64,000 nucleotides of DNA from Halorussus amylolyticus (lineage in GTDB: Archaea > Halobacteriota > Halobacteria > Halobacteriales > Haladaptataceae), in NCBI RefSeq assembly GCF_004143485.2, contig NZ_RXOB02000022.1:186001-250000 (forward strand), in the 5' to 3' direction. The translations under genes and the position numbers were made by a program. Within the stretch, counting starts at the first letter, position 1. Each line of letters starts with the position of its first letter. The notes under the pieces were generated by a model. That model had not been told where the DNA came from and did not search any database. It saw nothing but the letters and a program-made list of their open reading frames with translations. Positions 6,215 through 42,384 of the stretch are shown here, in pieces.

Positions 6215-6339
6215 GGGTGGGACTGAAAGGGGCGGCGCGCTCGCGTTTACTTTAGTCGTCTCAGCGACCTCTATCTGCGCGGGCAGTGCGGAGAGCGCAG
6301 ATATGTCGCTGAGCGACCGCGAGCGCGCCGGGGCTTTCT
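6215..6339 (+). repeat. 3'-intergenic structured element, copy A
   Basis: Complete copy of a dispersed element. A head box (6215-6233, ending GGGACTGAAAGGGGC) is followed by stem P1 (6234-6245 with 6318-6329, 12 perfect pairs), a single-stranded TTTACTTTA, stem P2 (GTCG, bulged T, CTCAGCGAC at 6260-6268, pairing with 6305-6317), a three-base bulge CTC opposite one T, stem P3 (TATCTGCGC at 6272-6280 with 6295-6303), a loop, and the tail GGGGCTTTCT (6330-6339). It lies 41 bases after the dehydrogenase stop, same orientation. It could be an RNA 3' structure or a mobile hairpin DNA element. Confidence 0.75.
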
Positions 6340-6372
6340 AAAACACAGTACCGCCGACTCTACTTCAGCAAC

Positions 6373-7575: not shown

Positions 7576-7672
7576 GATTCGGATGGCTCGCGGTGGCTAC
7601 TAATCCATTTCGGTGCGGACGGAGAATCTATAGCTTCCACCCAGAGTGAGACAGAGAGAGGGATTTTAGGGT

Positions 7673-7805
7673 AGAAAGCCCCGGCACGCTCGCGGCCGTT
7701 GCTCGGCATATCTGCGCCTCTCAGCAACACCCGGCGCAGATAGTGGCCGAGCAAGCGGCCACGGGCCTTCGGCCCGCGAGCGCGCCGCCCCTTTCAGTCC
7801 CACCC
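7673..7805 (-). repeat. 3'-intergenic structured element, copy B (covarying)
   Basis: Minus-strand copy. Head box at 7787-7805 and tail at 7673-7682. P1 pairs 7774-7786 with 7683-7695 with one G-U wobble in the minus-strand sense. P2 is TTGCTCGGC (element 5' strand, 7746-7754) with GCCGAGCAA (7699-7707), completely different in sequence from CTCAGCGAC/GTCGCTGAG of the other copies yet fully paired, extended by GGCCG/CGGCC across a single-base bulge. The three-base bulge (CAC) opposite one T is kept. P3 is TATCTGCGCC (7733-7742 with 7709-7718). A small extra hairpin GGGCC-TTC-GGCCC occupies the single-stranded segment. It starts about 70 bases after the chitinase stop, same orientation. Confidence 0.75.
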
Positions 7806-16807: not shown

Positions 16808-16888
16808 GACGGGTAGGCGGCACGGTCAGTCGGCCCCTTTCAGCCCGCGCGGTTTCCGCGTCGGGTCCGCTGGCTGACCTACCCCGTC
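16808..16888. repeat. Imperfect long hairpin in the 16.7-17.0 kb gap
   Basis: The 300-base gap after the GMC gene holds no gene. GACGGGTA (16808-16815) can pair with TACCCCGTC (16880-16888), and an inner hairpin CCCG-CGCGG-TTT-CCGCG-T-CGGG lies at 16844-16865. A stretch CCCCTTTCAG resembles the head box of the dispersed elements on the minus strand, but no partner stems or tail are present, so this may be an eroded relative or chance. Confidence 0.3.
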
Positions 16889-25699: not shown

Positions 25700-25910
25700 G
25701 GTACTCGGCGGTTTTGCGTGGGGTGACTTAATTTTACGCCCTCGATTATCGGGAAGGCGTTTGCGATAGTTGGATGTTCGAGTCTGTACAACTGCCGTGA
25801 TTGTTGCTCGCCCGCCTCCAACTGCGGACCGTAGAATCGAGAACAGCCAGAAAGCCCCCGCCCGGTCGCTTTGAAACGCAGACAACGGAAGAGCCGCGAA
25901 CACTTCGAAA

Positions 25911-26024
25911 GCCCCCGCCCGGTCGCGGTCGCTCAGCGACATATTCGGCGCAAACCGCGCGCCGAATAGAGGTCGCTGAGACGACCACGTAAACGCGACC
26001 GGGCGGCCCCTTTCAGTCCCACCC
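25911..26024 (-). repeat. 3'-intergenic structured element, copy C
   Basis: Minus-strand copy. Head box 26006-26024; P1 pairs 25994-26005 with 25916-25927 (CGCCCGGTCGCG type, 12 perfect pairs); P2 is the CTCAGCGAC/GTCGCTGAG version (25972-25980 with 25932-25940) with the flanking GTCG/CGAC; the CTC bulge opposite T is kept; P3 is TATTCGGCGC (25959-25968 with 25942-25951), different from copies A, B and D but still paired. The tail GGGGGCTTTCG follows, and a second P1-3'/tail copy (GCGACCGGGCGGGGGCTTTC) lies 50 bases further at 25848-25870. It is downstream of, and in the same orientation as, the helicase gene. Confidence 0.75.
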
Positions 26025-33538: not shown

Positions 33539-33545
33539 TCGCGCT

Positions 33546-33606
33546 CGGTGACACGGACCACCGGAAACGGCCGGTGACACTGCCGCCGGGAAATCGACAG
33601 GTGACC
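33546..33606 (+). repeat. Short copy of the 26/52-bp repeat
   Basis: GGTGACAC...CCACCGGAAACGGCCGGTGACA...CCGCCGGGAAATCGACAGGTGACC is the reverse complement of one unit of the array at 26036-26252. It stands between the acetyltransferase stop and the head box of element D. Confidence 0.7.
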
Positions 33607-33614
33607 AAACCATT

Positions 33615-33743
33615 GGGATGGGAATGAAAGGGGCCGCCCGGTCGCGCCCGAAGGGCTTGGTCGTCTCAGCGACCCCTATCCGGAGCGAACGAAGTGAGCG
33701 GAGGATATGTCGCTGAGCGACCGCGACCGGGCGGGGGCTTTCT
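33615..33743 (+). repeat. 3'-intergenic structured element, copy D
   Basis: Plus-strand copy with head box 33615-33634 (variant GGGAATGAAAGGGGC), P1 CGCCCGGTCGCG (33635-33646) pairing perfectly with 33722-33733, P2 GTCG-T-CTCAGCGAC (33660-33673) with GTCGCTGAGCGAC (33709-33721), bulge CCC opposite T, P3 TATCC (33677-33681) with GGATA (33703-33707), and the tail GGGGCTTTCT (33734-33743). P3 is shorter here and its bases differ from the other copies. It begins 77 bases after the acetyltransferase stop, same orientation. Confidence 0.75.
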
Positions 33744-33932
33744 GGCTGTTCGCGGTTCGTCTTTCTACGACGCTTCGAAGCGACCGAGCGGGGGCTTTCG
33801 AGGCGTCCTCCGCTGTGAAATCTACAGTTCGTAGAGACTCGGCGAAGACTCCCACAAACAAATCGCTCACTCGGACGCATGCATCACGAAGGAGCGAACC
33901 CCTTTTGAGAACGCGGTGACAACCGAGTACCG

Positions 33933-42354: not shown

Positions 42355-42384
42355 CGCGACCCGGCGGCTCCTTTCATTCCCCAC
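42355..42384 (-). repeat. Remnant of the 3'-intergenic structured element (copy E)
   Basis: On the minus strand, a head box (variant GGGGAATGAAAGGAGC, 42367-42384) is followed directly by a P1 5' arm (CGCCGGGTCGCG, 42355-42366), but no P1 partner, P2, P3 or tail follows. It begins 41 bases after the stop of the metal-transporter permease gene, same orientation as that operon, exactly the position used by the full copies. Interpreted as a truncated or decayed element. Confidence 0.6.

Follow-up and report, generated by a model that had tools for sequence, protein, structure and literature searches.

An oriented, covarying hairpin repeat between the genes of haloarchaea, probably a DNA repeat of the REPIN/BOX/small-mobile-repeat kind

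Are the folded segments that recur between genes in this part of the Halorussus amylolyticus genome RNA elements belonging to the gene before them, or repeats that spread as DNA? The preliminary description of the window (the whole 64,000-nt stretch that was analysed) reported four full copies and one remnant of an element, each lying just past a gene stop on that gene's strand, and offered both readings. All five are present (Table 1), and the four full copies are matched by R1, a covariance model whose 42 training copies come from eight Halorussus genomes, chiefly H. amylolyticus (G000). An isolated TGAAAGGGGC at 16833-16842 was rejected as another copy, as the remaining parts of the element are missing there, and it probably arose by chance.

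Table 1. Copies of the element in the window, with their parts and adjoining arrays
Feature	Position	Strand	Details
Copy 1 core	6216..6341	+	R1 140.8 bits, E 9e-28; MFE z -6.4
Copy 1 parts	head box 6216-6233; P0 6225-6229 with 6334-6338; tail box end 6338	+	
Copy 2 core	7671..7804	-	R1 127.2 bits; MFE z -6.0
Copy 3 core	25904..26023	-	R1 125.3 bits; MFE z -7.4
Copy 3 head-side array of ~26-nt units, potential mini-hairpins CCGGTG-ACACANNC-CACCGG-AAA	26034..26253	-	TRF period 52, 4.2 copies, 92% matches
Copy 3 second tail box (P1 3' strand + GGGGGCTTTC)	25850..25869	-	~57 bp past first tail box
Copy 4 head-side mini-hairpin array	33541..33612	+	
Copy 4 core	33617..33745	+	R1 112.3 bits; MFE z -5.4
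Copy 4 second tail box	33780..33799	+	
Remnant (head box + P1 5' strand only)	42355..42384	-	missed by R1

The plan claimed for the element (head, P1, linker, bulged P2, three-base bulge, P3, tail) is borne out in the window copies. Its outer parts are the head GGTGGGACT, a helix P0 (GAAAG:CTTTC), a symmetric GGG/GGG internal loop, P1 of 12-13 bp and the tail GGGGCTTTC. The outer helix P0, parted from P1 by the GGG/GGG loop, had been missed. After P1 comes an unpaired linker, often a small hairpin in its own right (GGGCCGAAGGCCC), followed by P2 with a one-base bulge, a bulge of 3-4 bases facing a single base (CTC opposite T), and P3, which starts TAT:ATA. Each full window copy folds into one long hairpin, with MFE z-scores of -5.4 to -7.4 relative to dinucleotide shuffles and none of 200 shuffles as good.

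The pairing is kept while the bases change. In the 42-copy alignment 98.1% of cells are paired, compared with 86.0% in shuffles, and both-sided changes occur at 21 of 38 pairs, a level never equalled in 500 shuffles; this alignment is also the one that yielded the structure, and these counts do not represent independent events because the copies are related and exchange sequence. All pairing measures exceeded 500 of 500 shuffles as well as all slid controls. Heads vary among species with P0 pairing retained (GAAG:CTTC at locus L100 versus GAAAG:CTTTC). With more than half of the pairs changed on both sides and covariance-model matches in well over a hundred genomes, the claim of a dispersed, structured and covarying element holds.

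A single frame (head box, P0, GGG/GGG loop, P1 and tail box) carries one of two alternative inner domains: domain I is that of the window copies, and domain II is marked by the conserved boxes CGYAAGCACC...GAGGAGCGCAGCG. Dispersed Halorussus copies of subtype II are found at L006, L008, L025 and L062, and a second covariance model, R2, represents this subtype.

Copy number is high within the genus. R1 finds 94 copies in the 3.78-Mb H. amylolyticus genome (a count that may be slightly high, as element and flanks are identical across the different contigs holding L048/L061, L054/L072 and L055/L073, which suggests duplicated or overlapping contigs), 109 in Halorussus salilacus (G022) and 51 in G024; of the other Halorussus genomes, G018 is without an R1 match and G016 has one. 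The exact head motif occurs 78 times in the H. amylolyticus genome and the reversed-pattern control not once. The wider haloarchaeal search that had been proposed returned R1 matches at E ≤ 0.001 for 171 of the 293 Halobacteriales genomes, spread over 57 of 87 genera, the per-genome counts being lower bounds. R2 matched 37 of the 38 genomes of the order against which it was tested (28/28 genera), with up to 76 copies per genome. Of 148 genomes sampled across the phylum, R2 matched 18, all of them Halobacteriales (24 listed from that order), and no genome outside it. The family is specific to haloarchaea, order-wide and absent beyond the order in the phylum sample.

As far as could be checked, the family is uncatalogued. 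The whole window gave no Rfam match at the gathering threshold, and copy 4, searched with a threshold relaxed up to E 10, gave a single chance-level match (E 7.3). A text search of papers for the motif returned matches that, by title, look unrelated, and neither the annotation of the records viewed nor the open-access papers searched contained a description of the family. A viral origin was rejected: there was no match in phage records, nor in IMG/VR with a strict DNA pattern.

The position of the copies relative to genes bears most directly on the opening question. With genes called by a simple codon-usage model trained on the window, in which single cases can be wrong, the five window sites lie 42, 68, 242, 79 and 40 bp past a same-strand stop, and the reported position downstream of a gene on its own strand stands for all of them (5/5). 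It does not extend to the genome: the upstream gene is on the element strand in 45 of 85 cases in H. amylolyticus (45:40, p = 0.66), 31 of 60 in H. salilacus and 9 of 21 in G024, and the agreement in the window is a small-sample coincidence. Copies with gene calls are intergenic. When the upstream and downstream genes are scored relative to the element, 36 H. amylolyticus copies are sense-tandem (++), 30 divergent (-+), 10 antisense-tandem (--) and 9 convergent (+-), the corresponding numbers being 23, 23, 6 and 8 in H. salilacus and 7, 2, 10 and 2 in G024. In the same DNA, gaps of 120 bp or more between genes comprise 278 tandem, 197 divergent and 79 convergent cases; the element class mix is close to this, which indicates that elements follow the supply of long gaps. 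Copies mostly lie more than ~85 bp from gene starts but approach stops more closely, and no functional theme was found among the neighbouring genes.

We consider it unlikely that the element is a transcribed cis-acting UTR RNA serving processing, stability or attenuation, as first proposed. Such a role would agree with the covariation and the conserved unpaired boxes, and with a sense bias within tandem gaps (36:10 in H. amylolyticus, p 0.00016; 23:6 in H. salilacus, p 0.002) that hints at an effect of transcription. It would also agree with the non-Watson-Crick pairs on the element strand, where G-U exceeds A-C by 23 to 5 cells in alignment A3 (just 12 versus 5 distinct cases), an asymmetry weakly suggestive of a functional top strand, either RNA or single-stranded DNA. 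However, about a third of the copies sit between divergent genes, mostly ~100 bp or more from either start, and since copies in divergent gaps have no 3' UTR, the 3'-UTR reading fails genome-wide. A UTR role would require these copies to be transcribed, and no promoter-like box was noticed by eye upstream of the head. Further to that, distance and orientation to gene 3' ends are inconsistent, the sense bias does not appear in G024 (7:10), the neighbours share no theme, and the two strands of copy 1 fold about equally well (z -6.4 for the element strand, -7.9 for the reverse). The facts agree better with the other reading first offered, that of a strand-biased hairpin mobile element, although the search for a Y1/IS200-type transposase and the comparison of empty sites gave no mobilising enzyme and no readable target-site duplication.

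Comparison among related genomes shows that sites are both gained or lost and shared. The H. amylolyticus copies were compared with sampled 20-kb stretches of H. salilacus and G024, giving 38 pairs in which both flanks aligned (an opposite-orientation hit at L032, across a longer gene-containing interval, was set aside). The orthologous gap is occupied in 16 pairs, an occupancy inflated because the sampled stretches were chosen to contain elements, and orientation is the same in 16 of 16. At empty orthologous sites the gaps measure 24-134 bp versus 351-403 bp in H. amylolyticus. The gap orthologous to that of copy 3 (W26006) carries a copy in the same orientation in H. salilacus (L145), while the G024 site corresponding to copy 4 is empty (gap of 24 bp versus 380). 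At L036 the site holds an element in G000, G022 and G024 and apparently, with the same genes on either side, in G011 (L130); in G016 it is empty. No target-site duplication is readable at empty sites, where the flanks are too diverged, the nearest relatives being only ~80-85% identical.

Most cores at shared sites have diverged in P2, in P3 and in the arrays beside them, with pairing kept; between L087 and its ortholog, for instance, one P1 pair has changed from A-T to G-C. P1 at orthologous sites is mostly CGGTCGCG in H. amylolyticus and CGCTCGCG in H. salilacus, and this adherence to a species consensus suggests gene conversion or replacement. An identical core lies between different flanks at L044 and L047.

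Copies occur singly or as doublets around a linker of ~26 bp. Head-to-head pairs with 21-29 bp between heads are often found in several genera (for example in G053, G080, G096, G177, G208, G279 and G010), and H. salilacus has two pairs facing each other across longer linkers (L172, L176). The L320 doublet joins a subtype I to a subtype II copy through a 25-bp linker similar to a single Halorussus array unit; the outer ends of the doublet form the inverted repeats CCTCGAAAGCCCC/GGGGCTTTCGAGG.

A further class of copies occupies a constant position on plasmids. In Haloarcula, almost every strong R1 match (E ~1e-13 or better) falls on a plasmid-sized contig, in most cases as the only one there, and matches on the chromosome are weak, with the exception of G168, whose match is on a 3.5-Mb contig. 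Nearly all of the strong Haloarcula copies lie upstream of a divergently oriented gene encoding an RPA-like OB-fold protein. Among the 30 best loci retrieved with the Haladaptatus version of this protein (P0001), 24 have an element, in every case divergent, at 378 to ~545 bp upstream of the gene, including some individually weak R1 matches counted because of their position; with the Haloarcula plasmids the overall distance is 378 to 622 bp. Comparison of R2 with RPA coordinates added cases that stood outside the R2 training set (among them G238:C27, G162:C1 and C3, G185:C1, G121:C1, G053:C2). Salinigranum rubrum has an RPA-linked element as well, and on pNRC100 of Halobacterium salinarum NRC-1 the element stands at the same position, beside VNG_RS12910, with two hairpins inserted. 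Most RPA-linked copies are of subtype II.

We suggest, with a probability of about 0.6, that the family is a haloarchaeal, protein-free, oriented palindromic intergenic repeat of ~110-135 bp, of the REPIN/BOX/small-mobile-repeat kind, whose hairpin is the substrate of a spreading process. A DNA repeat of this type explains the confinement to intergenic regions, the turnover, the homogenisation, the doublets and the absence of a neighbour theme. Copies would be spread and homogenised as DNA through a single-strand hairpin, by an enzyme still to be found or by gene conversion, and selection against damage to promoters or genes would leave them in gaps. On plasmids, the stable copy upstream of the gene for the RPA-like single-stranded DNA-binding protein may be a conserved resident that seeds the chromosomal copies.

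Two observations argue against a purely mobile repeat, namely the sites kept between genomes at ~80-85% identity and the fixed plasmid position, and they suggest that some copies are retained for function. It is possible, if doubtful, that the family is a nucleic-acid hairpin system peculiar to Halobacteriales, with dedicated machinery that recognises a single-strand hairpin, in which the plasmid resident lies by the RPA-like gene and dispersed copies are kept by selection and gene conversion with no transposase of a known class.

Somewhat less credible is that the element serves as a recognition site in DNA through which plasmids or chromosomes are maintained (by replication, single-stranded DNA priming, partition or recombination), with the plasmid RPA-like OB-fold protein as its partner. 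The divergent copy about 380-620 bp upstream of RPA-like loci in many genera would be expected of such a site, as would the scarcity of strong Haloarcula copies on the main chromosome, nearly all of them being found, usually singly, on plasmid-sized contigs. Yet G006, G008 and G020 have no strong RPA-like match and carry many elements nonetheless, so the protein is not needed for dispersed copies, was rejected as their obligatory partner and cannot be the general driver; in addition, ~100 scattered copies fit poorly with a unique origin or centromere.

A classical MITE or PATE moved by a known haloarchaeal transposase, with terminal inverted repeats and target duplication or with IS605-type ends, is highly improbable: doublet ends and P0 do form inverted repeats, and MITEs, PATEs and SMRs are numerous in haloarchaea (PMC3119063), but no duplication was seen among relatives ~80-85% identical, the genes beside H. 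salilacus copies include no transposase family that stands out, and H. amylolyticus lacks a Y1/IS200-type transposase (PF01797, 0 matches) despite its 94 copies. PF01797 is also absent from G012, G013, G014, G017 and G020, each with at least 11 elements (all 11 of the candidates scored). Its absence from H. amylolyticus led us to reject IS200/605 or RAYT as the current driver of the repeat.

The closest known relatives in kind are the bacterial REP/REPIN sequences with their RAYT proteins (PMC3116915, PMC3733652), which are likewise short, oriented, imperfect palindromes, intergenic and of high copy number, occurring as singlets and inverted doublets with a species-specific consensus; the head-to-head pairs described above have the REPIN layout. 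The haloarchaeal element differs in being archaeal, about three to four times longer, and built of an internal bulged hairpin with two interchangeable inner domains; the RAYT/Y1 protein is absent from the 94-copy genome, and no GTAG or CGTC tag was noticed. BOX, RUP and ERIC/RU of bacteria are modular, structured, protein-free intergenic repeats able to carry extra modules. The modular plan is shared with them, whereas lineage, boxes and doublet spacing differ, as judged from their general descriptions. Conserved secondary structure and covariation are features in common with Rfam RNA families, none of which matched at the gathering threshold.

SMR-A of Haloquadratum walsbyi is a non-coding repeat of ~110 bp with terminal inverted repeats, tens of copies, no known transposase and an unexplained mobilisation (PMC3119063), and the present family resembles it in all of these. 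SMR copies are reported to share, as a rule, >95% identity and to target IS605/PATE palindromes (PMC3119063), whereas the present family shows much greater diversity, covaries and is found between host genes, a distinction drawn from the description of SMRs and not from their sequence. Within the literature reached, a REPIN/SMR-like repeat of this type appears to be new to archaea.

Across haloarchaea, with model genera included, as on pNRC100, the element would rank as a major family of structured repeats. It raises testable questions: how oriented hairpin repeats spread free of RAYT, why one is retained at most of the plasmid RPA-like loci examined, and how stems come to change in step at fixed sites. 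R1 and R2 are two covariance models missing from annotation pipelines.

Accessory modules surround many copies. In most Halorussus copies the head is flanked by an array of ~26-nt units (CCGGTGACACANNCCACCGGAAA), each a potential mini-hairpin, and in many the tail side has an array too, its 50-58-nt units being repeats of the P1 3' strand with GGGGGCTTTC. Hairpin cassettes (CTCGTGAGCGAAGCGAACGAG, GGAAGACGCGGTTTGTCTTCC and similar) lie within element loops at L043, L044, L047, L053, L056, L057, L066, L067, L074, L086, L088 and L089, and on pNRC100 (L378 6290-6490).

The plasmid RPA-like 'DNA-binding protein' family is itself widespread, occurring in 153 plasmid records and 282 of 293 genomes of the order, often in several copies on plasmids; many of the whole-genome matches are weak and probably chromosomal paralogs. 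Its gene neighbours include small conserved-looking hypotheticals and, in one record, a primase. On a Haladaptatus salinisoli plasmid (L127 246-3051) the element lies between the RPA-like gene and an ORF that, judged by eye, resembles an SbcD/Mre11 metallophosphoesterase.

Two further sequences accompany the head. An extra module, GGGACTTCCGAAAGAC..GTCTTTCG..CCCGTTCGTTCCTCAC, which duplicates GGGACT and contains two small hairpins, is present in the head of ~14 copies (L001, L009, L011, L019, L021, L029, L033, L034, L040, L043, L045, L053, L068 and L084). Upstream of the element head at L035, L071, L087, L002 and L005 stands another dispersed haloarchaeal repeat, GGCGCGCGCTGG..GCGCGAGGGATGAGYGAGCGAA..AATCGGTTGGGGAGG, which abuts the head in L071 and L087.
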